Below are positions 3 to 18,415 of a stretch of 64,000 nucleotides of DNA, piece after piece. Positions within the stretch are counted from its first letter, which is position 1. Every line of letters starts with the position of its first letter. The stretch covers positions 186,001-250,000 of the forward strand of contig NZ_LS483369.1 in the NCBI RefSeq assembly GCF_900475315.1. Reading direction: 5' to 3'. Made by a program: the position numbers and the translations under genes. The notes beneath the pieces are model-generated. The model did no database searches, was not told where the DNA came from, and saw only the letters and a program-made list of their open reading frames with translations. The stretch comes from Neisseria cinerea (GTDB lineage: Bacteria > Pseudomonadota > Gammaproteobacteria > Burkholderiales > Neisseriaceae).

Positions 3-2108
3 GCCGAAGAAGCCTTACACGCCGCCCGCGAAGCGTTTCAGACGGCCTCAAACCGCTTCCAAGGTCTGAAGCAGCAACACATCACCTTGCAGGCGCAGCA
101 GCAGGCGTTGTCGCAAATCCTGTCGCAACAGCAGGAAGCCGCCGACTTCTGGCAGGCAACCGACCACGCCGCCGCGCCGCAACTGTGGCAACACATCACC
201 GCGCCCGCCGAGTGGCAGCACGCCCTGTCCGTCATCCTTGCCGAACGCCTGCACGCCCGCGCCGTGCCGCACGGCTTCGTGCCGCCCGCGCCGTTGCCGC
301 AGGGGCAGGCGGCATGGCTTTCAGACGACCTCTCCGGCGGCATCAAAAAATCCCTGCCCGTACAGGCATTGCTGAACCAAATCCAAGCGCAGCCGCCGTT
401 TCAGACGGCATTGCACCACTGGCTCGACGGCGTATTGTGCGCGCCCGATTTGAGCTACGCCCTCGCGCATCAAAGCGATTTGGGCGCACACCAAATCTGG
501 CTCACACCCGAAGGCCATCAGGTCGATAAAGTCAGCGTTCTGCTCTATGCCAAGCCCGCGCAGGAAAGCTTGATTGCCCAAAAAGCGCGCCTCGACGGCA
601 TCGCTTCCGAACTGGAAAAACTCGCCCCCGAACTCTCTGCCGCCGAAGCCACGTTTAAACAGGCGGAGGCTGCCGTGCGCTCGTCCGAAGTGCAACATAA
701 AAACCTGATGCAGCAGCAACAGCAGCACACGCGCCAATACAGCCAAGCGCAGCAACGCGCTGCCGAACTTCTGGCGCGCACCAACCAAGGGCAAATCCGC
801 CGCGAACACATCGAGCGCGAACTGGCGCAGTTGGCGGAAGAACAGACCGTGTTGCAACACACGTCCGACGGGCTTTCAGACGACATCGCCACTTTGCAGG
901 AAGCCGCCGCCGAACTCGAACACCAGCAGCAAACCACCGCGCACAGCCGCCAAGAGCAGCAAGGCCGTCTGAAACAGGCGCAGCTTGCCCTGTTGGAAGC
1001 CAACCGCCAATACGGGCTGGCCGAAGTCGCCGTCCACAAACTCAACCAGCAAAAACAAAACTACCAGCAGCAAATCGCCCGACTTGAACAGCAAACCCTC
1101 GACTGGCAGGAACGCCAGCAAGAGCTTGCCCTCGCCTATGAAACCGAGTTCCAAAACGATGAGCAGCACATCAAGCTTGAAGAATTAAGCGAAGCCGTAC
1201 ACACGCTGGACGAAGAATACATCGCCGTACAGGAAAAACTCGCGCAGATTCAGGAGCAGGGCAGGGAGCAATACGCTAAAGTGCAAGCCCTGCAAACCAA
1301 GCTGCCGCAGCTTCAGGCCGCGACCCAAACCGCCCTGTTGCAACAGCAGGAAGCCCTGATTAACGCCAAACGCTACCATCAAAATCTGACCGAACACGCC
1401 GTCGATTTGGACGCGCTCGAAGCGTTGGCGAAAGAATCGCCGAAAGTATTGAACAACAGCATCGGCAGCCTCACCCAGCAAATCGAAGCCCTTGGCGCCG
1501 TCAACCTCGCCGCCCTGCAAGAACTTGAAGAAGCGCGCGAACGCGACGGCTACTACCGCAGCCAAAGCGAAGACGTGCAGGCAGCCATTACCCTTTTGGA
1601 AGAGGCCATCGCCCAAATCGACGACAAAACCAAAGCGCGTTTCAAAGAAACCTTCGACGCCGTCAACGGCAAAGTCCAAACCTTCTTCCCGACCCTGTTC
1701 GGCGGCGGCGAAGCCACCCTCAAAATGATAGGCGACGACCTCCTGACCGCCGGCGTGTCCATCATGGCGCGACCGCCCGGCAAGAAAAACAGCACCATCC
1801 ATCTCCTCTCCGGCGGCGAAAAAGCCCTCACCGCCATGAGCCTCGTGTTCGCCCTGTTCAGCCTCAACCCCGCCCCCTTCTGCCTTCTGGACGAAGTCGA
1901 CGCCCCGCTGGACGACGCCAACACCTCGCGTTTCTGCAACCTGGTCAAAGAAATGTCGGCGCAAACCCAGTTTCTCTACATCTCCCACAACCGCCTGACC
2001 ATGGAAATGGCAGAGCAGCTCGTCGGCGTAACCATGCAGGAAAAAGGCGTATCGCGCGTCGTTGCCGTGGACATCAAACAGGCGTTGGAAATGGCGGAAT
2101 CCGTCTAA
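3..2108 (+). CDS. smc: Smc chromosome segregation ATPase, C-terminal part (5' end outside window)
   Basis: SMC proteins form long coiled-coil dimers that organise and segregate the chromosome. The frame is open from base 3, so this is the 3' part of a larger gene. The visible part starts with Gln-rich coiled coil, then a globular hinge-like stretch (around bases 130-560), then a long returning coiled coil rich in Gln, Glu and Ala. It ends in the C-terminal ABC head, with signature LLSGGEKALTAMSLVFALF near base 1805 and Walker B CLLDEVDAPLDD near base 1880. The lack of an N-terminal Walker A is explained by the window edge. Several DUS cores lie within the coding sequence. The gene ends in a hairpin shared with the convergent adhP. 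Identification is firm. Confidence 0.95.
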   Translation, partial: AEEALHAAREAFQTASNRFQGLKQQHITLQAQQQALSQILSQQQEAADFWQATDHAAAPQLWQHITAPAEWQHALSVILAERLHARAVPHGFVPPAPLPQGQAAWLSDDLSGGIKKSLPVQALLNQIQAQPPFQTALHHWLDGVLCAPDLSYALAHQSDLGAHQIWLTPEGHQVDKVSVLLYAKPAQESLIAQKARLDGIASELEKLAPELSAAEATFKQAEAAVRSSEVQHKNLMQQQQQHTRQYSQAQQRAAELLARTNQGQIRREHIERELAQLAEEQTVLQHTSDGLSDDIATLQEAAAELEHQQQTTAHSRQEQQGRLKQAQLALLEANRQYGLAEVAVHKLNQQKQNYQQQIARLEQQTLDWQERQQELALAYETEFQNDEQHIKLEELSEAVHTLDEEYIAVQEKLAQIQEQGREQYAKVQALQTKLPQLQAATQTALLQQQEALINAKRYHQNLTEHAVDLDALEALAKESPKVLNNSIGSLTQQIEALGAVNLAALQELEEARERDGYYRSQSEDVQAAITLLEEAIAQIDDKTKARFKETFDAVNGKVQTFFPTLFGGGEATLKMIGDDLLTAGVSIMARPPGKKNSTIHLLSGGEKALTAMSLVFALFSLNPAPFCLLDEVDAPLDDANTSRFCNLVKEMSAQTQFLYISHNRLTMEMAEQLVGVTMQEKGVSRVVAVDIKQALEMAESV

Positions 2109-2220
2109 ACGGGTTGCAGAACGGTTGAATCTTGCCGTTCTTCTTAATGACGTGTTGCGATACGGGTTTTCAGACGGCATTTCAAACAGAACGGATTAAA
2201 ATCAAATCCAAATCCATAAA

Positions 2221-2253
2221 AAATGCCGTCTGAACAGCGTTCAGACGGCATTT
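2221..2253. terminator. Inverted DUS pair, bidirectional terminator between smc and adhP
   Basis: ATGCCGTCTGAA and its reverse complement are separated by a short loop and flanked by A and T runs. It lies between two convergent genes and could stop transcription from both. This is the usual Neisseria use of paired uptake sequences. Confidence 0.8.
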
Positions 2254-2275
2254 CGATGTGTATCGCCACGTCAAA

Positions 2276-3322
2276 TCAGTGGTGATGGCCGCAGCCGCAT
2301 TCTTTTTTCATATCGATTACCATACGGCCGGTAATTTTACCTTCGCGCATTTCTTGGAAGATGGCAGGCGCTTCATCCAAAGCACGCAACTTGACTTTAG
2401 GCACAACCAAGCCTTCTGCGCCGAATTGGAATGCTTCTTCTAAATCTTTGCGGGTACCGACCAAAGAGCCGACCACTTCGATGCCGTCCAAGACCAGACG
2501 AGGAATGGACAGGTCCATAGATTCGGGCGGCAGGCCAATGGCGACGACGCGACCGCCTGCGCGGACGCAGTCCACAGCGGAGTTGAATGCGGCGGCGGAT
2601 ACGGCGGTAACAATGGCTACGTGTGCACCGCCGGTTTTTTCCTGAATCACTTTGGCGGCATCTTCTTTGGCAGCGTTGATGACTAAATCTGCGCCGCTTT
2701 CTTTGGCAAAAGCCAGTTTTTCATCGTTGATGTCGATGGCGACGACGTGTGCGCCAAATACTTTTTTCGCGTATTGAACCGCCAAGTTGCCCAAACCGCC
2801 TGCGCCGTAAATCGCAATCCATTGGCCCGGACGAACGCCGGAAACTTTAATGGCTTTATAAGTGGTTACACCGGCACAAGTAATGCTCGAAGCTTGCGCA
2901 GGATCCAAGCCTTCTGGGACTTTGACCGCGTAATCAGCACTCACGATACAGTGGGTCGCCATGCCGCCGTCGGCAGTATAGCCAGCGTTCAATACAGAGC
3001 GGCACAAGGTTTCGCGGCCGGTATTGCAGTATTCGCAAGAACCGCAGCTTTGGAACAGCCATGCAATGCTGACACGGTCGCCAACTTTCAGATTTTTCAC
3101 ACCGTCGGCAACCTCTTTAACCAAACCGATACCTTCGTGTCCCAACACGCGACCAGGTTTGTCGCCGTAATCGCCTGCCGCAACGTGCAAGTCGGTGTGG
3201 CACACGCCGCAATACTCGACTTCCACCAATGCCTCGCCGTATTCCAGAGGACGCAGTTCGCGTTCAACAACTTCTACATCACCTGCTACATCTTTATTTA
3301 CTACCACAGCATGCATTTTCAT
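2276..3322 (-). CDS. adhP: Zinc-dependent alcohol dehydrogenase (AdhP/AdhA class)
   Basis: Medium-chain NAD-dependent alcohol dehydrogenase of 348 residues, expected to interconvert primary alcohols and aldehydes in the cytosol. The N-terminal catalytic domain holds the catalytic-zinc motif CGVCHTDLH (about residues 37-45) and a GHE motif. The structural-zinc loop [15 protein letters not shown] lies around residues 92-106. The Rossmann fold carries [11 protein letters not shown] near residue 174. The protein ends in [10 protein letters not shown], an unusual Cys/His tail that could bind metal. The ATG is preceded by a good AAGGAG. A sigma70-like promoter and a Zur-box match lie upstream (see those entries), which suggests expression follows zinc status. 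In the meningococcal gene order as I recall it, this gene sits next to pilV, as here. Confidence 0.9.
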
Positions 3323-3384
3323 GATTGCGCTCCTTAGTTACGGTAAAAAAACCTGTAAACGGAATGTTGTCCGATATAAGGATA

Positions 3385-3413
3385 AGCATACGCTTCCGCA
3401 TCTTGCGAGTCAA
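3385..3413 (-). promoter_or_regulatory. Predicted sigma70-type promoter of adhP
   Basis: Read on the minus strand: TTGACT (3408-3413), a 17-base spacer, then TATGCT (3385-3390). The -10 is about 62 bases before the adhP start codon. This is a prediction from sequence only. Confidence 0.55.
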
Positions 3414-3443
3414 ATGGTATGTTGTTGAAAAATATGGATTATA

Positions 3444-3458
3444 TGTTATATTATAACA
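3444..3458. promoter_or_regulatory. Zur-box match upstream of adhP
   Basis: TGTTATATTATAACA fits the meningococcal Zur consensus as I remember it (TGTTAT, three variable bases, ATAACA) at every fixed position. It is centred roughly 73 bases upstream of the predicted transcription start, that is upstream of the -35. That geometry suits activation better than blockage. Confidence 0.6.
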
Positions 3459-3540
3459 ACTGGGGAGATACGGCATCGTGGCGGTTGTCGGATGCGGGGG
3501 CGGCAGGTTTCAAGTTTGAAAAACCGGATGGGGCAAACCC

Positions 3541-3582
3541 GTAAAAATGCCGTCTGAAACAGTGTCCGAACGGCATTTTTAC
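3541..3582. terminator. DUS-based hairpin terminator of pilV
   Basis: The GTAAAAATGCCGT arm pairs with ACGGCATTTTTAC around a slightly mismatched DUS core, leaving a T-rich tail. It lies just downstream of pilV on the minus strand. Confidence 0.7.
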
Positions 3583-3605
3583 GGGTTTCGGGTTTCGGCG
3601 GAGGG

Positions 3606-3992
3606 TCAGTCAAAGCCGGGGCAGGATTGATTTGTACCGGAAGCGGCAATGATACCGCCGTCGTTGAGCGTAACGACGCAGGTCTCCCCGTTGTTGGCTG
3701 TATTGGGGTTTGCCTTAAGGGTGAAGTGGTCGGAGTTGACTTCGCTTAAAGTAATATCGAAGTATGTGTTTTGTTCCAATTTTGTTTGGTCGTAGTTTTT
3801 AAACGTCCCTTTTTGGCGGTAGAAACGTTCCATGGTCTGCGCGTTGTGCAGCAGGGTCGTCCTGACTTCCGTCAGTCGGACGCGCCGGACGTAGTATTGA
3901 TAGGAGGGATAGGCAATGAGTGTGAGGATGCTGAGGATGACGATGACAATCATCAGTTCGGCCAACGTGAAGCCTTTTTGAACGGTTCTCAT
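3606..3992 (-). CDS. pilV: PilV minor type IV pilin
   Basis: Type IV pilin-like protein of 128 residues. It has a short prepilin leader ending in KG before FTLAELMIV, so the PilD peptidase should cut between Gly and Phe and leave the conserved Glu at mature position 5. The hydrophobic helix (about residues 8-30) anchors the protein in the inner membrane and then in the pilus core. Two Cys near the end (CVVTLNDGG and NQSCPGFD) mark the usual pilin disulfide loop. Size, the C-terminal sequence and the position between adhP and macA match meningococcal PilV as I recall it, a minor pilin that affects adhesion signalling and competence. ComP was considered, but its sequence differs. The gene is divergent from macA. 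Confidence 0.9.
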   Translation of the reverse strand: MRTVQKGFTLAELMIVIVILSILTLIAYPSYQYYVRRVRLTEVRTTLLHNAQTMERFYRQKGTFKNYDQTKLEQNTYFDITLSEVNSDHFTLKANPNTANNGETCVVTLNDGGIIAASGTNQSCPGFD

Positions 3993-4167
3993 GGCAAATG
4001 GTTTCCATCGGGTTGTTTGTCGGTGGCATTATACCGCTGTAAGGGAGATGGCGGTATATGTAAACAGATTGAAATTTTCTGGAAAATTATTTGCATAAAT
4101 CATTAAAAACAAACATTTATTTATATTTTTGGCACTTTGCTCACTGGGCGCGCCGGGGGGCTTGCGG

Positions 4168-4191
4168 TAGAATCCGTATCCGGTTTATAAA
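4168..4191 (+). promoter_or_regulatory. macAB promoter region with TAGAAT and TATAAA hexamers
   Basis: TAGAAT (4168-4173) recalls the published gonococcal macAB -10, where a G at the third position weakens the promoter. An alternative pair, TTGCGG (4162-4167) and TATAAA (4186-4191) with an 18-base spacer, lies in the same stretch. Which one is used cannot be told from sequence. Confidence 0.4.
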
Positions 4192-4217
4192 ATTGCAGTA
4201 CACAGAGAATTGAAAAT

Positions 4218-5390
4218 ATGGCAAAGATGATGAAATGGGCGGCGCTTGCTGCGGTTGCTGCGGCAGTTTGGGGCGGATGGTCTTATCTGAAGCCCGAACC
4301 GCAGGTTTCTTATATTACGGAAACGGTCAGGCGCGGAGACATCGGGCAGACGGTCTCGGCAACGGGTGAGATTTCGCCGTCGAATCTGGTATCGGTCGGT
4401 GCCCAGGCATCGGGGCAGATTAAGAAGCTTTATGTCAAACTCGGGCAGCATGTCCGAAAAGGCGATTTGATTGCGGTAATCAATTCGACCTCGCAGACCA
4501 ATACGCTCAATATGGAAAAATCCAAATTGGAAACGTATCAGGCAAAGCTGGTGTCGGCACAGATTGCATTGGGCAGCGCGGAGAAGAAATATAAGCGTCA
4601 GGCGGCGTTGTGGAAAGATGATGCGACCTCTAAGGAAGATTTGGAAAGTGCACAAGATGCGCTGGCCGCTGCAAGGGCCAATGCCGCCGAGCTGAAGGCT
4701 TTAATCAGGCAGACCAAAATTTCTATCAATACTGCCGAATCGGAATTGGGTTACACGCGCATTACTGCAACGATGGACGGCACGGTGGTGGCGATTCCCG
4801 TGGAAGAGGGACAGACTGTGAACGCGGTGCAGTCTACACCGACGATTGTCCAGCTGGCCAATTTGGATATGATGTTGAACAAAATGCAGATTGCCGAGGG
4901 TGATATTACCAAGGTAAAGGCTGGTCAGGATATTACGTTTACGATTTTATCGGAGCCGGATACGCCGATTAAGGCGAAGCTCGACAGTGTCGATCCGGGA
5001 CTGACCGCCATGTCGTTGGGCGGCTACAACAGCAGTACGGATACGACTTCCAGCGCAGTCTATTATTATGCCCGCGCGCTTGTGCCGAATCCGGACGGCA
5101 AGCTTGCTATCGGTATGACGACTCAGAATACGGTTGAAATCAACCGAGTGGCAAATGTGCTGATCATCCCGTCGCTGACAGTCAAAAAACGTGGCGACAA
5201 GGCGTTCGTACGCGTGTTGGGTGCGGACGGCAAAGCAGTGGAGCGAGAAATCCGGACCGGTATGAAAGACAATATGAATACCGAAGTAAAAAGCGGTTTG
5301 AAAGAGGGGGACAAAGTGGTTATCTCCGAAATGACGGCAGCCGAGCAGCAGGAAAGCAGCGAGCGTGCCATGCAGGGCCCTCCACGCTGA
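4218..5390 (+). CDS. macA: MacA, periplasmic adaptor of the MacAB macrolide efflux pump
   Basis: Membrane-fusion protein of 390 residues that links the MacB ATPase to an outer-membrane channel for export of macrolides and other compounds. A single N-terminal anchor (about residues 7-24) is followed by the lipoyl-like half ISPSNLVSVGAQASGQI, an alpha-hairpin with coiled coil (about residues 95-180), the second lipoyl half (TMDGTVVAIPVEEGQTV), a beta-barrel domain, and a membrane-proximal domain ending in EREIRTGMKDN. It is followed by macB on the same strand across a 72-base gap that contains an inverted DUS pair. Divergent from pilV. Confidence 0.92.
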   Translation: MAKMMKWAALAAVAAAVWGGWSYLKPEPQVSYITETVRRGDIGQTVSATGEISPSNLVSVGAQASGQIKKLYVKLGQHVRKGDLIAVINSTSQTNTLNMEKSKLETYQAKLVSAQIALGSAEKKYKRQAALWKDDATSKEDLESAQDALAAARANAAELKALIRQTKISINTAESELGYTRITATMDGTVVAIPVEEGQTVNAVQSTPTIVQLANLDMMLNKMQIAEGDITKVKAGQDITFTILSEPDTPIKAKLDSVDPGLTAMSLGGYNSSTDTTSSAVYYYARALVPNPDGKLAIGMTTQNTVEINRVANVLIIPSLTVKKRGDKAFVRVLGADGKAVEREIRTGMKDNMNTEVKSGLKEGDKVVISEMTAAEQQESSERAMQGPPR

Positions 5391-10647: not shown

Positions 10648-11745
10648 TTATTCCGGATCATCCGTAAACGCATTTTCCCGAAATATCGGTACAAACGTGA
10701 AAAGATACAGTACGAACACGGCGGCGGTCAGAATCGCGGGGACGGTGATGAAGAATATCGGGTTCACGTTCATCAAAACAGCGCGCGAGACGGCGGCGGC
10801 GAAGAGGATGGGAACGGCGATGCGGCAGAGTTTGGGGTAGTCGAGCTTGGTAAAGCCGCTGTGCCACAGTCCGGCGGTCAGCCACACCATCATCACGCCG
10901 CCCATCATGCCGCCGAGGGTAATCAGGTGCAGGGGGGCGGAGGCGGGCAGGTTTTGCAATTTCGCCGCGCCTGTCCACAGATAGCCTGCGGCGGCAAAGA
11001 GCTGGAGCAGGTAATAAGTGCGGACGTAGTGTTTGCGCAGGAGTTCGTGATGGTGAAGCTCACGCAGCTTGGCAAGGAGGATGAAGCCGACGGCGAGCGC
11101 GGTAAAACCGGCGGTTTGCGCGGGCAGCCAAAGTTCGGCGGCGGCGTGCAGGAGTAGGAAGGTGATGGCGATGTTTTTATAGACGACGTTGGGGATGAAT
11201 ACGGGGTCTTTCAGACGGCATTCTTTGAGGGCTTCCGCGCCTAGAAGGACGCTGACGCGCACGGATACGAACATGACCGCCGCCATGTTCAAATGCACTT
11301 GCGCGCGCAACAGGTTCAAATCGCCACTGACGGCATAGGCCGTCTGAAAAACGGTGAACGCGGCAAGCAGTATCAGCAGGGCGAAATTGTCGGTATTGCG
11401 GTCGAGCCAAATCAGCCAGGCGCAGAACAGCAACAACACCAGCCAATAGGCAGCAACGAAAAACGAGGCAGTTTGCGGCGAAAAGGGCAGTATAGCGGAT
11501 GCGGCGAGCAACAATGCCGCCATCAAAGTAGCAACAGGTTTCAGACGGCCTTGATAGCCCGTCCATTCAAGCATGGCGGCAGTCAGGAAGCCACCGTATG
11601 CCGCAGGCAGCATGAGTTCCAAGAAGATTTGGCGGTGCAGGACGATAGAGCCGGGGCTGATGAAAAACACCAACGAGCCGAGTATGGCAAGCACCGCCGC
11701 GCTGACGAAAAACGGCCGCATGGGGTGGGTGAAAAATTTATTCAT
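10648..11745 (-). CDS. nnrS: NnrS family membrane protein
   Basis: Integral membrane protein of 365 residues with about 12 hydrophobic segments. The signature stretch HLITLGGMMGGVMMVWLTAGLWHSG (about residues 275-300), with its His and Met residues, and HLNMAAVMFVSVRVSV match NnrS, a haem- and copper-binding protein in other bacteria tied to protection during nitric oxide stress and denitrification. Its partners would be the denitrification genes, including the nos cluster 30 kb away. A 10-base match to an NsrR half-site (11767-11776) lies just upstream but is not convincing. The gene ends in a shared terminator with priA. Confidence 0.8.
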   Translation of the reverse strand: MNKFFTHPMRPFFVSAAVLAILGSLVFFISPGSIVLHRQIFLELMLPAAYGGFLTAAMLEWTGYQGRLKPVATLMAALLLAASAILPFSPQTASFFVAAYWLVLLLFCAWLIWLDRNTDNFALLILLAAFTVFQTAYAVSGDLNLLRAQVHLNMAAVMFVSVRVSVLLGAEALKECRLKDPVFIPNVVYKNIAITFLLLHAAAELWLPAQTAGFTALAVGFILLAKLRELHHHELLRKHYVRTYYLLQLFAAAGYLWTGAAKLQNLPASAPLHLITLGGMMGGVMMVWLTAGLWHSGFTKLDYPKLCRIAVPILFAAAVSRAVLMNVNPIFFITVPAILTAAVFVLYLFTFVPIFRENAFTDDPE

Positions 11746-12040: not shown

Positions 12041-12658
12041 TCATATTATTGATATTATTGTTCGAATTGTATTATTTTCAATAATAATAAATAACCCTAA
12101 ACCAATATAAATAACAGCCATTATCCAACGACTAAACTTCTCTACAATTTCACCAACACCTGAAATATTAGCCAATCTTTGTGCTGTATATACTAAAACA
12201 AAAATCAATATTAAAAATACAAGAAGAGTAACTAATAAGTCGACAAGATCTAAAGTCACAAAGTAAGGAACAAAAAGTCCAATATTATCTGCACCACAAC
12301 TAGCAACTGTAACCAAAGCAACAATACCGACTAATTTTGACAACCCTTTTTCATCCAATTCTTTTTTAGCTCTTTTTTCGCCCTCACAATCGTCGTAAAT
12401 AGCAACTTTAATACCTAAGTAAATCGGTATTAAACCTAATAAACCCAACACCCATTTTTCCGGAACATAATGCAAAACAAAAGCTAGAAATAAACTAACT
12501 AATATTAAAATTACAGAACCTAAATATTGTCCGATATAAATATCTCGATATTCTTTTCTAGTATTTGCTCTAGCAAAAAATATTAATAGTATTACCAACA
12601 AATCTACTGCTGTAGCAATATATAAAACAGCAGCAGTAATCACAGTCGAAAACATAAA
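12041..12658 (-). CDS. cadD: CadD-family cadmium resistance transporter-like protein
   Basis: Membrane protein of 205 residues with five or six hydrophobic segments, a charged loop after segment three (DDCEGEKRAKKELDEKG) and the motif VASCGADNIGLFVPYF typical of the CadD family, known from staphylococci for cadmium export or sequestration. It is much more AT-rich than its neighbours. I chose ATG 12658 (MFSTVITAAVLYIATAVDLL). The open frame extends 16 codons upstream, but that stretch is a copy of the 3' end of the adjacent ATPase gene read in another frame. The gene sits between two copies of a 215 bp repeat, which suggests acquisition. Metal specificity is inferred from family only. Confidence 0.75.
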   Translation of the reverse strand, partial: FMFSTVITAAVLYIATAVDLLVILLIFFARANTRKEYRDIYIGQYLGSVILILVSLFLAFVLHYVPEKWVLGLLGLIPIYLGIKVAIYDDCEGEKRAKKELDEKGLSKLVGIVALVTVASCGADNIGLFVPYFVTLDLVDLLVTLLVFLILIFVLVYTAQRLANISGVGEIVEKFSRWIMAVIYIGLGLFIIIENNTIRTIISII

Positions 12659-12662
12659 GCAC

Positions 12663-12724
12663 CTCATAATGAATCCCCTGCCCCCTTGGCACCACGGCTT
12701 TTTCAAAAACCGAATCGCGTTCGG
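12663..12724 (-). pseudogene. Duplicated 3' fragment of the ABC ATPase gene
   Basis: On the minus strand, in the ATPase frame, this reads ERDSVFEKAVVP then RGQGIHYE. The true C-terminus of the ATPase at 12965-13030 reads ERDSAFEEAVVA then REFQGIHYYE. It is a relic only about 20 codons long, directly upstream of the cadD-like gene, and shows that the cadD insertion involved duplication of local sequence. Confidence 0.75.
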
Positions 12725-12964: not shown

Positions 12965-13660
12965 TCACTCATAATAATGAATCCCCTGAAACTCTCTTGC
13001 CACCACGGCTTCTTCAAAAGCCGAATCGCGTTCGGACAGCGGCGTAGGCAGGGTAATCACGTTTTGCACGTTCATGCCCTTAGTGGAAAGCAGCATGATT
13101 TCATGGCTCAGGCGTGCGGCTTCGAAGCGGTCGTGCGTTACCAGCATACACGCCATGCCCTGCCGCTCGATTTTTTCCACCAGCATGGCGACCAAAATAT
13201 CGCGCAAATCGCGGTCCAAACCGACGAACGGCTCGTCCAGCAAGGCAAGGTCGCAGCCGCACAGCAGCAGGCGCAAAAATGCTACCCGTTTCGCCATGCC
13301 GCCGGACAATTCGGTCGGATATTTGTTCAAATCGCCCGCAGTCAGCCCGACTTTCGCCGCCAGCGCGATGATTTTGCCTTCATCGGGTTTGTCCATAAAA
13401 ATAGCGATATTCTGCATCGCGGTCAAGTTTCCCGGCAGGCGGTTTTCCTGAAACAGAAAACCCGTTTTGCGGAAAGTATTGCGTATCGTGCCCGATTTTG
13501 GCGTTTCCAAGCCCGCAATCAGCCGCAAAACCGTCGTCTTGCCGCAGCCGCTCGGCCCGAACAAAGCTTTTACTTCGCCGTGTTGCAGGTTCAAACTGAA
13601 ATCGCGCACGATGGGGTCGCGGAGAATTTCAAAACGCACGTTTTCAAGACAGAGCATCAT
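12965..13660 (-). CDS. ABC transporter ATP-binding protein (nitrate/sulfonate/taurine-type)
   Basis: ATPase of an importer resembling the SsuB/TauB class. It has Walker A GPSGCGKTT, a Q-loop in FLFQENRLPGN, signature ELSGGMAKRVAFLR, Walker B LALLDEPFVGLD and H-loop LVTHDRFEA. It overlaps the stop codon of the upstream permease (AGATGATG), so the two are translationally coupled. ATG 13660 and ATG 13657 are both possible, and a GTG at 13669 would add three residues. The partner genes are the permease next door and the binding protein at 15426-16403. Its 3' end is duplicated beyond the adjacent repeat. Confidence 0.88.
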   Translation of the reverse strand: MMLCLENVRFEILRDPIVRDFSLNLQHGEVKALFGPSGCGKTTVLRLIAGLETPKSGTIRNTFRKTGFLFQENRLPGNLTAMQNIAIFMDKPDEGKIIALAAKVGLTAGDLNKYPTELSGGMAKRVAFLRLLLCGCDLALLDEPFVGLDRDLRDILVAMLVEKIERQGMACMLVTHDRFEAARLSHEIMLLSTKGMNVQNVITLPTPLSERDSAFEEAVVAREFQGIHYYE

Positions 13661-14454
13661 CTTCTCCACGGCATAAACAAAATTTCCAAAGGCTTAGTAA
13701 TCAGGTATTCAAACAGCGACACAAACACGATAACCAACACCACATAAGCCATCACCGTCGAAGTCTCCAGCATCGCCCTCGCATCCGCAATCCGCGCGCC
13801 CACGCCTTCGCTCGCGCCCAAGAGTTCCGCCATAATCACCACCTTCACCCCCATCGCCACCGCCACGCCGATGCTGGAAATCACATAGCCCGTCAGATGC
13901 GGGATATACAGATAACGGATTTTTTTCAGACGGCCTAATTTATAAGCGTCAAACAACTCTTCATGCTGCTTGTTCACGCTCGCCATCCCGACCGCCGCAC
14001 TCGCAAACGTCAGCGGCGCAACCAACACAATGATGGTAAACAACACGCTCGGATTGCCAAAACCGAACCAAAACAACGCCATCACCACCCAAATAATCGG
14101 CGGCATCGCCAACAAAACCGTAATCACAGGCTTAAGCAACGCCATCGCCGTCTTAAAACTGCCCGCCACCAGCCCCGCTGCCAGTCCTGCCGCCAGCGCA
14201 ACCGAAATGCCCACCACCGACCGCCACAGCGAAATCCCAATTTCGTTTTCCTGAAAATGTTTCAATAAATCAAACGACTTTTGAAACACCTCCGCCGGCG
14301 CAGGTAGCATAAACTCACCGAACACGGCGCTGCCCCACGCCCACAACGCCACCACCACCATCGCCACGCCCAGACCGGCAAAGCCGCTCCAAAGGTAGTC
14401 GATGATGTAAAACACCGCAGGCTGCGGTTTGCGTATTTTGTCGGTTTTAATCAT
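13657..14454 (-). CDS. ABC transporter permease (nitrate/sulfonate/taurine-type)
   Basis: Inner-membrane permease of 265 residues with about six helices. The EAA loop that docks the ATPase is EELFDAYKLGRLKKIRYLYIP (about residues 165-186), followed by the Gly-rich MAELLGASEGVGARI region typical of this class. It contains the DUS spelling AGGCCGTCTGAA at 13926-13937. It is coupled to the ATPase by overlap. The binding protein that should feed it lies 970 bases upstream, beyond an AT-rich insert, so the operon looks interrupted. Confidence 0.88.
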   Translation of the reverse strand: MIKTDKIRKPQPAVFYIIDYLWSGFAGLGVAMVVVALWAWGSAVFGEFMLPAPAEVFQKSFDLLKHFQENEIGISLWRSVVGISVALAAGLAAGLVAGSFKTAMALLKPVITVLLAMPPIIWVVMALFWFGFGNPSVLFTIIVLVAPLTFASAAVGMASVNKQHEELFDAYKLGRLKKIRYLYIPHLTGYVISSIGVAVAMGVKVVIMAELLGASEGVGARIADARAMLETSTVMAYVVLVIVFVSLFEYLITKPLEILFMPWRR

Positions 14455-14483
14455 GGTTTGGGTGTTGGTTGATGGGGATGGTG

Positions 14484-14572
14484 GGTCGTCTGAAAAATGG
14501 TAATTGGTTTAGACGAAACGCCACAATACAACGAAACGGTTTGATTTCCCAAATAGTGTTTTTCAGACGACC
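14484..14572. terminator. Inverted pair of variant DUS (GGTCGTCTGAA) after the 164-residue ORF
   Basis: GGTCGTCTGAAAAA (14484-14497) is the exact reverse complement of TTTTTCAGACGACC (14559-14572). The arms have the CC-to-TC spelling AGGTCGTCTGAA known from the N. mucosa/N. sicca dialect. It lies downstream of the ORF at 14624-15118 on the minus strand. The loop is long (61 bases), so termination is uncertain. Confidence 0.5.
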
Positions 14573-14623
14573 TTGGTTTGGGATTTTGGGATTTTGTTGG
14601 GTTACGACTGCGACTAAGCCAAC

Positions 14624-15118
14624 CTACGTTGGCTCGCAATTATTAGCAGGGGTATATACGAATTCATCAGGTTCATCTTCGTTACCCCTCTTCCCCCTTG
14701 AATCTTTATAAATTTTTGTTTGTTTAAAAGTATCTTGGATAAACCCGTTCTTCCCTAAAATCTTAAATACTGTTTGTTTATCTGGATTATCATCTTTTAC
14801 AAGTGCAAAAATCTTTAAATCTTCCTTGTACTCGTTTTGAAGGAATTGTCTTAGTATTTCTGTAAAGTGTACGTTTGTATCATCTGTCAATGTACCAAAT
14901 ATAATTTCATATCCATCTCCATAATACCAAACTTCCAATATGATAAAAGCTACTAAAACTTCATTTAAATAGCATTCATATATCTTGCTTTTTTCATCAA
15001 AAACGATAGGTTGATTATCATTTATATATTTGAGATTATAAGCCTTCTCATTTTTAAGAATAAATTCTGTAATTTTGTTGCTGGCAATACATCCAATATT
15101 TTTAAATTCAAAAGTCAT
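14624..15118 (-). CDS. Hypothetical protein, AT-rich, possibly acetyltransferase-like
   Basis: A 164-residue soluble protein that I do not recognise. It is far more AT-rich than its neighbours. The middle part (VAFIILEVWYYGDGYEII, then an amphipathic helix, then VFKILGKNGFIQDTFKQT) has the strand-helix-strand feel of a GNAT acetyltransferase, but the acetyl-CoA loop is not evident. The last residues run into intergenic-type sequence, so the C-terminus may not be original. It lies within a roughly 1 kb insert between the binding-protein and permease genes of an ABC importer and is flanked by foreign-spelling uptake sequences. Probably horizontally acquired. Confidence 0.5.
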   Translation of the reverse strand: MTFEFKNIGCIASNKITEFILKNEKAYNLKYINDNQPIVFDEKSKIYECYLNEVLVAFIILEVWYYGDGYEIIFGTLTDDTNVHFTEILRQFLQNEYKEDLKIFALVKDDNPDKQTVFKILGKNGFIQDTFKQTKIYKDSRGKRGNEDEPDEFVYTPANNCEPT

Positions 15119-15178
15119 CTTAAATATTCCTAATAATTATAGTAGATTGATTCATAACTCAACCTTCTAGATTTTGTA

Positions 15179-15373
15179 TACCGTTCTGAATATTATTTGA
15201 TAGACCGTCTGAAAAGAGTAGCACGTGTAGGTTAGGTCTTTCAGATAATTCAACAATTCTGTTTGGTTTAACAACCCAATATACAGATACCTGTCGTCAT
15301 TCCCGCCTGCGTGGGAATGCCGGCCTTTTTGTGTACTGTTCTAACTATTATCTGATAGGTCGTCTGAAAAGGG
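15179..15373. repeat. Imperfect 40-base direct repeats ending in DUS variants
   Basis: 15179-15218 and 15334-15373 match at 33 of 40 positions. Each ends in a DUS-like core, GACCGTCTGAAAAG in the first and GGTCGTCTGAAAAG in the second. They bracket a dRS3 element. The 307-base gap 15119-15425 holds these repeats, the dRS3 and a hairpin, and no gene that I can see. Confidence 0.6.
15299..15318. repeat. dRS3 repeat
   Basis: ATTCCC, eight bases, then GGGAAT: an exact match to the 20-base Neisseria dRS3 repeat, which is known as a target for filamentous prophage integration and as a recombination site. Confidence 0.85.
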
Positions 15374-15417
15374 TATATTGGATTCCCCAATACTAATTCT
15401 CCCTTTTCACACGACCT
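15357..15417. terminator. Variant-DUS hairpin terminator after the binding-protein gene
   Basis: AGGTCGTCTGAAAAGGG (15357-15373) pairs with CCCTTTTCACACGACCT (15401-15417), 16 of 17 positions complementary, starting nine bases after the binding-protein stop on the minus strand. It would separate that gene from the downstream permease. Confidence 0.6.
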
Positions 15418-15425
15418 CTTTCACT

Positions 15426-16403
15426 TTAAGCCAAGAAGAACCCGTTATCAGGCAGCTTGCCGCCCAAAAGTTTCGAATTGAACTGCATCAGGATTTCGTA
15501 AAACTTCAAAATCTCGTTCTTCACTTCGCTGCCTTTGGTTACCGTCAGCCGCGCGCCGTCCAAGCCCATGACTAGGGCGGGTTCGGGGGCGGGGAGGTAG
15601 TTTTTGCCGATTTTCGCCGCGCTTTGGCGGTTGGCGAGTATCCAGTTGAGCGCGTTTTTCAAATCCTGATGGAAGAGGTCAAACTGCGCTTTGTGTGCGT
15701 GGAAATATTCTTCGTTGGCGATGATGCCCGCCATCGGAATCAGCGGTTTGGTGTCAAACGCCTGCCCCCATGCTTTCACCAAATCAAAGCCGCGCACGAC
15801 GTTTACGCCCATGGTTTTGCCTTTCAGTAGGCTGGCAGTTGCCATCGGTTCAGGCAGGATGGCGGCGTGGTAGTCCTTGCTTAAAAACAGTCCGACTGCT
15901 TCGGGCGGCGTGGCGGTGTAAGTGATGCCGACTTTGTGCGCATCGATTTTCAGTTTTTTCAACAAGGCTTGCAGCACGATGTCGGGCATATCGTTTTTAA
16001 ACGGCACGAGGATTTTTTTGCCGACCAAATCCTGCGGCGAGGCAATCGCGCTGCCTTTGCACATCAGCTGCGTGATGCCGTTGGTCAAAATATTGACCAT
16101 GCCGACTTTCTGCCCTTGGTTGCGCAGGTTTACGCCGACATTGCTCGGACTCATCATTACTTTAAATTGTCCGCTTGCTACACCTGCGCGCAGTTGGTCG
16201 GGCGAACGCCAGATTTTCAGCGATACATCCGCCTGCTTCGCCAGCTTGCCTTGCAACGCCGCTACGGCAATGGTTACGCTGGGCATTGCCGGTGCGCCGT
16301 ACACGGTAAATTGTTCTTTACCAGCTGCCAACAATGAAGGCGAAACGCCTGCGGCTGCCAGCGCGGCGGTCATTTTTAAGAAATCACGTCTTTTCATGTC
16401 CAT
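15426..16403 (-). CDS. ABC transporter substrate-binding protein with Tat signal
   Basis: Periplasmic binding protein of 325 residues in the NMT1/SsuA-like class. The N-terminus MDMKRRDFLKMTAALAAAG has the twin-arginine motif KRRDFLK and a short hydrophobic core ending near SLLAAG, so it is probably exported folded by Tat. The body has the two-lobed pattern (LRAGVASGQFKVMMSPSN, DLVGKKILVP, ATPPEAVGLFL, AAILPEPMA). Its transcription precedes the permease and ATPase genes but is separated from them by a terminator and an AT-rich insert. It follows the TonB-receptor-type gene by 57 bases, so the two are likely cotranscribed. The substrate is unknown. The Fur-like site upstream points to an iron-linked ligand. 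Confidence 0.85.
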   Translation of the reverse strand: MDMKRRDFLKMTAALAAAGVSPSLLAAGKEQFTVYGAPAMPSVTIAVAALQGKLAKQADVSLKIWRSPDQLRAGVASGQFKVMMSPSNVGVNLRNQGQKVGMVNILTNGITQLMCKGSAIASPQDLVGKKILVPFKNDMPDIVLQALLKKLKIDAHKVGITYTATPPEAVGLFLSKDYHAAILPEPMATASLLKGKTMGVNVVRGFDLVKAWGQAFDTKPLIPMAGIIANEEYFHAHKAQFDLFHQDLKNALNWILANRQSAAKIGKNYLPAPEPALVMGLDGARLTVTKGSEVKNEILKFYEILMQFNSKLLGGKLPDNGFFLA

Positions 16404-16460: not shown

Positions 16461-18380
16461 TTAAAAAGCCGCATGCAAACTCAACCAATACGTCCTGCCC
16501 GGTGCATACACCACGCTGGGCGATAGGGCGAGGACGTGGTCGCCGCTGATATGTTCGGCGTATTTTTTGTTGAACACGTTGTTCACGCCCAAGCGCAAGC
16601 CGTATTTGTCTTTGATGTTCATGCCGGCATACACGTCGGCAACGGTAAAGCCTTTGGCGGCTTCGCGTTTGTCTATGCCCAGACCGCTTGCCATATCAAA
16701 ATCGCCGCGCGTTTGTTTGGCGACAAAGCGTGTTGCGGCGCCGATGTTGTAGCTGCCGTGGGTAAAGTAGTTTTTGTAGTCGGCTTGGACGGCGGCTTCA
16801 AACGGACGGATTTGATAGAGCGGTCTGCCGTCGGTTTCGTTGTGTCCGTAGTTGTAGGTGGCTTTGATGCCTGCCGCCCAATGCGGATTGAAGTTGTAAC
16901 GCGCATAGGCCTGTGCGGTAAACAATCGTGCGTCCACATTGCGTGTGATGATGCCGCCACCTTTGGAAGCCGTGCCACTTTGTCCGTGGGCGCGGTCAAA
17001 AATAATCAGGTCTTTGACTTTGTCTGCCACAAGCGTGCCGCCCACGTTCCAGCCAGCTCCTGCGAGCGAGTTCATATAGCCGTTGTAGTAGTCGTTGCGG
17101 CTGTCGGCGGTGAGCTTGATGCGGTTGTGTTTTTCGGTTTTCAGCAGGGGATTGCCTGCGATGGTAGCGGTTGGGTTTGGGTTCATCAGCGCACCGTTCA
17201 TGCGGTTTTGCATGATGGCGGCAAGCGAGTTGAAGCGTTCGGTGTTGTCACCGATGCGTTCCAAATGCGCGAGGGAAACGCTGTATTTTTGCGTTTCAGA
17301 CGGCGTGAAATCGTATTTGAGTTCGCCCGACAAAGCATGACGGCGCACTTTGCCGTTGAAGTCGTAGCCGTAATGGGTTTTCCAGATTTGTTGTGATGAG
17401 GCGAAGGGGAAACCGGGTTTTATTGGGTTTTCAGGCTGTGCCGTATTTTTGCGAATGTCCGCTTCGTTGAGTTCGTAGCTTAAGCCCAAGCCCAGTTTGT
17501 GTCGGTCGTCAAACTTGTAAGATAAGGTATCGGCAATGCGCCAGCGGTCGATGTGCACATCGGCGAAACGGTAGCCGTTGAGGAAGTCGCGCATGGGAGT
17601 GTGGGCGTTGCGCTCGCCGTTTTGGCTGTCGTTGCGGTAGCTGGCTGTGGCCGTGTTGTGGAACTTGCCGAAATCTGCGTCGTGTTTGAGCGAGAAATCA
17701 TACACTTTACGGTCAAGTTCTACGAACACTTTCTGCTGCGTATTGTTTTGACGCAGGGAGTAATTGTCGGCGCGGCGTTTGAGTTTGATGATGCCTGCTT
17801 CCGCGCTAACCGTATTGTTTAAATCGGCATTGCCCCAACGCGCGTTGAGTTTGGAGATGTGGCGTTCGGTGTCCAATGCGTCGTTGACGAACTGCGGCTG
17901 GCGGTCGTTGTTGATGTCGTCGTGCAGATAAGTGAGGCGGTATTCTTGATTTTCAGACGGCACGAAACCGAGTACCAAAGCCTGATTGAAGCGGCTGTAT
18001 TCCCAATCGGTGTCGCGCCCACCACCATCTTTGTAGCCGTTTGCCTTGGTGTGATTGAGGTTGGCTACGCCGTATACCTTCGCCCCGCGTGCTTGCGCGG
18101 TAACGGAATTATAAAAACTTTTGCCGTAGAAGCCGCTGTTTGCTTTCAGCGGACGGAAGGCTTGGTCTATGTTTTCGGTAACAAAGTAATGATTGCTGCG
18201 GTCGGTGCGGTCGAATTGGTTTTCGGGGAAATAGCCTTGCGCTGCGGTTGGTGCAATCGGTTTGGGAGGGGAGAAGGTTTTGACGGATTGTATTTCTTCA
18301 GTATTTGCCAGTTGTTCTGCCCAAGATGGAGTAACGGAAAAAACGGTCATCAAAGCCCATGTGAGAGTATTTAGTTTCAT
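16461..18380 (-). CDS. TonB-dependent receptor-type outer-membrane barrel, plug domain apparently missing
   Basis: Outer-membrane protein of 639 residues with a Sec signal (MKLNTLTWALMTVFSVTPSWA) and a C-terminal aromatic ending (GRTYWLSLHAAF). The barrel and the NNVFNKKYAEHIS motif near the end are typical of TonB receptors, and the C-terminus recalls the copper receptors NosA/OprC. However, only about 50 residues separate the mature N-terminus from what looks like the first barrel strand (SGFYGKSFYNSVTAQARG). I find neither a TonB box nor the roughly 130-residue plug. It may be a decayed receptor with an in-frame deletion or a channel of a new kind. Cotranscribed with the binding protein and preceded by a Fur-like operator. 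Confidence 0.75.
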   Translation of the reverse strand: MKLNTLTWALMTVFSVTPSWAEQLANTEEIQSVKTFSPPKPIAPTAAQGYFPENQFDRTDRSNHYFVTENIDQAFRPLKANSGFYGKSFYNSVTAQARGAKVYGVANLNHTKANGYKDGGGRDTDWEYSRFNQALVLGFVPSENQEYRLTYLHDDINNDRQPQFVNDALDTERHISKLNARWGNADLNNTVSAEAGIIKLKRRADNYSLRQNNTQQKVFVELDRKVYDFSLKHDADFGKFHNTATASYRNDSQNGERNAHTPMRDFLNGYRFADVHIDRWRIADTLSYKFDDRHKLGLGLSYELNEADIRKNTAQPENPIKPGFPFASSQQIWKTHYGYDFNGKVRRHALSGELKYDFTPSETQKYSVSLAHLERIGDNTERFNSLAAIMQNRMNGALMNPNPTATIAGNPLLKTEKHNRIKLTADSRNDYYNGYMNSLAGAGWNVGGTLVADKVKDLIIFDRAHGQSGTASKGGGIITRNVDARLFTAQAYARYNFNPHWAAGIKATYNYGHNETDGRPLYQIRPFEAAVQADYKNYFTHGSYNIGAATRFVAKQTRGDFDMASGLGIDKREAAKGFTVADVYAGMNIKDKYGLRLGVNNVFNKKYAEHISGDHVLALSPSVVYAPGRTYWLSLHAAF

Positions 18381-18392
18381 TTTTTAGCTCAT

Positions 18393-18415
18393 GATAATAA
18401 TTATTATTTATTATC
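18393..18415. promoter_or_regulatory. Fur-box-like operator of the TonB-type receptor gene
   Basis: GATAATAATTATTATTTAT matches the classical 19-base Fur consensus at about 13 positions and contains a perfect 14-base palindrome (ATAATAATTATTAT). It overlaps the predicted -10 region and ends 13 bases before the start codon, a position expected for iron-dependent repression. Confidence 0.55.

Follow-up and report, generated by a model that had tools for sequence, protein, structure and literature searches.

A selected TonB-receptor-type barrel that lacks a plug domain heads an importer cassette in Neisseria and related bacteria

Organization of the barrel locus

We examined a 64,000-nucleotide stretch of the Neisseria cinerea genome (NCBI RefSeq assembly GCF_900475315.1, contig NZ_LS483369.1, positions 186,001–250,000; hereafter the window). 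The window contains a gene for a TonB-receptor-type barrel that heads a cassette in the order barrel, substrate-binding protein (SBP), permease, ATPase and NnrS, located beside dnaK in Neisseria. The features of the locus, in window coordinates, are as follows.

10648–11745, reverse strand: NnrS family haem/copper membrane protein, the last cassette gene (PF05940, 2.2e-48)
12041–12706, reverse strand: cadmium-resistance-type transporter, inserted in the cassettes of some species and probably cargo
12965–13669, reverse strand: ABC ATPase
13657–14454, reverse strand: ABC permease (BPD_transp_1)
15426–16403, reverse strand: periplasmic SBP with a Tat signal, NMT1/SsuA/TauA type
16461–18380, reverse strand: plugless TonB-receptor-type barrel gene, 639 residues
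16464–18140, reverse strand: beta-barrel domain (residues 81–639), aligned with the OprC-type barrel from strand 1 to the C-terminal Phe
18141–18317, reverse strand: conserved N-terminal segment replacing the plug (residues 22–80), motif KTFSPPKPIAP...ENQFDRTDR
18318–18380, reverse strand: signal peptide (residues 1–21, MKLNTLTWALMTVFSVTPSWA), read from the sequence, with the probable cleavage site placed by the AxA rule and the alignment
18387–18414, no strand assigned: Fur-like operator directly upstream of the barrel gene, 15/19 match to GATAATGATAATCATTATC

The barrel gene is an intact reading frame, as the initial annotation had proposed, with 639 codons, an ATG start and zero internal stops. 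A single codon lies between the ATG and the in-frame stop ahead of it, and the distance to dnaK is only 224 bp, so no plug is hidden upstream; a misassigned start was ruled out, the upstream sequence having no open frame. About 58 residues of the mature chain precede strand 1, close to the roughly 50 first estimated. The mature protein has no Cys and only 7 Met.

The genes that follow the barrel encode an NMT1-like SBP (PF09084, above cut-off), a BPD permease (PF00528) and an ABC ATPase (PF00005). A weak AlphaFold model of the binding protein matches 3hn0, PqqT, TauA, SsuA and Thi5. The Fur-like site matches the consensus at 15 of 19 positions (shuffle p about 0.003), and similar sites lie upstream of many orthologues, with significance not reached for all. 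The earlier placement of the gene under a Fur-like operator and alongside an importer is therefore borne out.

The same cassette occurs in an unrelated chromosomal setting in Lonepinella. An SBP gene adjoins the barrel gene in all Neisseriaceae and Pasteurellaceae cassettes read and in four of the five genomes read from a gammaproteobacterial family (f29); none adjoins the barrel genes of f47, a family of another class. NnrS is conserved in the Neisseriaceae cassettes, and in Pasteurellaceae only its C-terminal half was detected. The SBP, ABC and NnrS genes are also found without the barrel in several Neisseria, indicating that the importer can do without the barrel. Barrel-less Neisseria (loci L084, L085, L086 and L088; genomes G012, G015, G026, G029, G031, G034 and G042) keep the SBP, mostly with permease, ATPase and NnrS; at L088, a 1139-residue TonB-receptor-like protein is encoded some kilobases upstream. 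The interval between the SBP and permease genes (14455–15425 in the window; also L045, L047, L048, L084 and L085) is missing in Lonepinella and reaches ~2.5 kb in Neisseria; the small genes it contains differ from species to species, and the one in the window encodes a 164-residue protein without a Pfam match. It looks like an insertion hotspot inside the cassette.

The plug and TonB box are absent

Searches with the Pfam Plug model (PF07715; hmmscan, E up to 10) matched 8/8 plugged relatives and 0/10 plugless members; the window's protein gave no match even at E = 10. The barrel model PF00593 matched eight of the ten plugless members. By profile-profile alignment (hhalign), we compared the plugless set with OprC-type relatives that have a plug, drawn from Neisseria and more widely. 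Plugless columns 79–640 pair with plugged columns 173–667 with a probability of 100; plugged columns 1–172, which hold the signal, TonB box and plug, are left unpaired. Including the signal, ~80 residues stand ahead of strand 1 in the plugless proteins versus ~160–200 in full-length plugged homologues. In the alignments inspected, no TonB-box-like sequence common to the plugless orthologues follows the signal peptide; the corresponding stretch of the plugged relatives is LEPVVVTGT. The absence of both plug and TonB box, first noted by eye, is thus confirmed. A candidate plug remnant, suggested by a MAFFT alignment that lays KTFSPPKPI over the plug end VVVTKGPQTV, was rejected; hhalign gives it no support.

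The remainder of the protein is a C-terminal TonB-receptor-like barrel by three measures: the whole-barrel hhalign match, PF00593 and a Foldseek match to OprC. By homology, it would have 22 strands.

Relation to OprC-type copper receptors

The best match in the PDB is OprC, by sequence and, despite the weakness of the model, by fold. The TonB-copper model TIGR01778 matches residues 99–639 only (profile positions 139–637), with a score of 179.2 bits, below its cut-off of 472.45. Together these results agree with the initial assignment to a NosA/OprC-type barrel.

This kinship, together with the haem/copper protein NnrS encoded in the cassette, raises the question of whether the protein is a copper importer that has shed its plug and still supplies copper for nitrite and nitric-oxide respiration. 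OprC binds copper through Cys143 and Met147 in the plug and His323 and Met325 in the barrel (PMC8610252). Most plugged relatives retain the corresponding CxxxM and HxM motifs. In the window's protein the plug half of the site is gone, and the barrel motif HVMDNYSLR (HxMDNYSLR) reads RRADNYSLR. With the plug pair lost, the barrel HxM replaced and no cysteine in a mature chain that has few methionines, copper import of the OprC/NosA type appears unlikely on sequence grounds. We reject the identification as a copper receptor and regard continued service as a copper importer as very unlikely.

Plugless barrels form one clade

Among 83 Neisseriaceae genomes, orthologues with the same short N-terminus were found in ~10 other Neisseria species at 90–95% identity, and more distant ones, at 50% identity, in two other members of the family. 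The loci include those of N. viridiae, N. polysaccharea, N. elongata and N. bergeri and of rumen MAGs (50%). Three Pasteurellaceae in all have a plugless orthologue (54–57% identity), among them a Lonepinella koalarum MAG (57%). In f29, 6 of 12 genomes encode a plugless barrel with 31–37% identity to the window's protein, and f47 contributes a distant plugless sister group (5 of 18 genomes). Full-length plugged alleles, which the initial annotation considered would reduce the gene to a simple deletion pseudogene, were sought in sister species and not found; every orthologue is plugless.

In a tree of the plugless proteins and their plugged relatives, built from barrel columns only, 22/22 plugless rows lie on one side of one branch (support 100/98). 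One ancient loss suffices to account for this distribution, and the plug was probably lost once, in the ancestor of the plugless branch; multiple independent losses are unneeded. The family is rare. In a survey of 399 Pseudomonadota and 369 Gammaproteobacteria, the other strong matches sit in frames of ~690–760 residues and start at later profile positions, as plugged proteins would be expected to. No relatives were found in viral contigs.

Several loci have features of their own. One contig that was binned as Campylobacter (L051) carries the cassette in full, and the barrel encoded there groups with those of rumen Neisseriaceae; this is either an inter-phylum transfer or a binning error. In the f47 subfamily (L094–L098), the conserved N-terminal segment is of another kind and the binding protein is missing. 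Two of its barrel genes are divergent from neighbouring genes for giant proteins of surface type, one of which contains DUF4347, Big and cadherin-like domains. At one f29 locus (L074), the stretch upstream of the plugless barrel (876–5197) carries a pair of fused ABC genes of the exporter fold that flank an alpha/beta hydrolase and may belong to the YbtPQ/IrtAB type of siderophore importer.

The gene is under purifying selection and has decayed in some lineages

Pairwise comparison (Nei-Gojobori) of the window's barrel gene with seven Neisseria orthologues gave dN/dS values of 0.10–0.16. Conservation is strongest in the segment that replaces the plug: across five divergent orthologues, 57% of residues 34–61 are invariant, versus 33% of the barrel and 5% of the signal peptide. 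The motif K-x-F-x-PP-x-PI-x-P...ENQFDRT-x-R is present in Neisseriaceae and Pasteurellaceae, with the last Pro missing in N. polysaccharea. A looser form, F-x-PP-x2-I-x-P...N-x-F/Y, is retained in f29 at 31–37% identity. The segment is constant at ~57 residues, even in f47, where it differs in sequence.

A deletion allele or pseudogene of a plugged receptor is rejected by the dN/dS values and by the plugless state of all orthologues. A decaying relic, whose plug was deleted and which now drifts, its expression harmless, would fit the broken copies that some genomes carry. The gonococcal orthologues (L024, L044 and L053) are split by a frame change in mid-barrel, one Neisseria genome is down to an N-terminal remnant, and the N. 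bergeri orthologue has an 18-codon in-frame loss. Against this stand the dN/dS values, which make a relic improbable, the conservation of the cassette, and the intact copies in ~10 Neisseria species and in distant families across a deep divergence. We consider a relic extremely improbable. The plugless architecture itself we regard, with high confidence, as real, old, selected and common to one clade.

In the genome with the remnant (L042, 1498–1806; L089), only the first 59 barrel codons persist, fused to unrelated sequence, and a decayed binding-protein gene lies ~3 kb away. The N. gonorrhoeae matches labelled 'plasmid' are chromosome-sized records.

The gonococcal dnaK gene is NGO1429 (PMC3032703). 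NGO1430 and NGO1431 lie next to it, and for this reason are probably the two pieces of the broken barrel gene. An antigen array includes NGO1430 and lists it as a 'TonB-coupled transporter' (PMC11306574), and NGO1431, a predicted outer-membrane protein, was undetected in a biofilm proteome (PMC3368942). If NGO1430 is the barrel gene, as its position suggests, the sequence does not support the former label.

How a plugless barrel could be closed

The initial annotation saw two possibilities for an unplugged barrel, a large open pore or closure by a separate protein. This leaves out a third option, which the strong conservation of the N-terminal segment and the enlargement of the loops make possible: the barrel may constrict itself. 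The barrel part is ~540–559 residues long in plugless proteins versus ~480–533 in plugged relatives, with insertions at residues 389–399 (loop L7) and 430–441 (turn T7), named by counting strands back from the C-terminus in a weak AlphaFold model. That model (nine-sequence alignment; pLDDT 51.7, pTM 0.54, N-terminus below 50) is too weak to place the segment or to judge closure of the lumen.

In the mechanism we propose, loss of the plug left a barrel of the 22-strand type with its conserved ~57-residue N-terminal segment. This segment, the enlarged extracellular loop L7 and the periplasmic turn T7 would lie in or at the barrel mouth and form a constriction, making the barrel a TonB-independent, substrate-selective diffusion channel. 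A solute passing through it would be caught by the adjacent Tat-exported SBP of the SsuA/TauA/NMT1 type, the direction of transport being presumed inward, and then driven inwards by the permease and ATPase of the ABC system. A Fur-type regulator would place the cassette under the control of iron, with NnrS regulated alongside, and the substrate might be an iron-responsive small solute, probably anionic or a metal chelate. The chances that the barrel is such a self-narrowed channel feeding the importer seem to us about even. We would put equal weight for and against the wider proposal that Neisseriaceae, Pasteurellaceae, f29 and the sister group in another class form a natural subfamily in which a single loss of the plug gave rise to 22-strand channels that constrict themselves, need no TonB and mostly have an SBP as partner.

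We weighed two other arrangements. The N-terminal segment could be a reduced mini-plug still pulled by TonB, the protein remaining an active transporter. In favour of this, no other stretch is as well conserved as the segment, which starts from the N-terminus on the periplasmic side and keeps its length into f47, and Fur-type control is typical of TonB systems; however, nothing resembling the TonB box of the plugged relatives follows the signal peptide, the Plug model is silent, and hhalign pairs no part of the segment with plug columns. We judge a mini-plug rather unlikely. Closure in trans would involve either the SBP docked at the periplasmic mouth or a stand-alone plug that escaped detection. 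There is a physical precedent for it: the engineered plugless FpvAI of Pseudomonas aeruginosa, a barrel defective in ligand uptake, is complemented by the FpvAI plug supplied as a soluble protein (PMC10994204). The regular adjacency of SBP and barrel genes described above is also consistent with such closure. The separate plug protein that the initial annotation had envisaged was not among the Plug matches of four genomes: 13/13 in the window's genome and 17/17 in three others lie in frames of 677 residues or more, a search that a divergent plug could escape. In addition, the SBP occurs without the barrel, and f47 barrels occur without the SBP. We judge closure in trans unlikely.

The protein and its orthologues in several bacterial families have all lost the plug, yet selection preserves the gene next to an importer, so the plugless barrel probably represents a new type of gate or pore that works without TonB.

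Comparison with known systems

The way in which the plug moves, and the ability of a 22-strand barrel to work in its absence, are long-standing questions in TonB transport. A lineage that is plugless in nature, and whose genus also encodes plugged relatives, allows the need for the plug to be examined by direct comparison. It also suggests a route from a gated active receptor to a passive channel that leaves the outer membrane tight, and it draws attention to a Neisseria importer that is still uncharacterised.

Among characterised proteins, the OprC/NosA copper transporters (TIGR01778; PDB 6fok, 6z8y) share the barrel sequence and fold and the C-terminal motif. The plugless barrel differs from them in having no TonB box, plug or CxxxM-HxM copper site and in scoring below the TIGR01778 cut-off. 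ZnuD and FrpB, TonB-dependent transporters of the same genus, are distant fold relatives, but the plug is complete in both. The cassette's SBP, permease and ATPase are of the same kind as the SsuABC, TauABC and PqqT-type importers; we know of no such system with a dedicated plugless barrel encoded alongside.

We found no natural plugless or plug-lacking TonB receptor in a search of largely open-access literature, and earlier plugless barrels seem to have been laboratory constructs (PMC10994204). The engineered plugless FpvAI is likewise a TonB-receptor barrel without a plug in the outer membrane (PMC10994204). FpvAI lacking its plug is a laboratory construct, whereas the Neisseria plugless barrel is natural, old and conserved.
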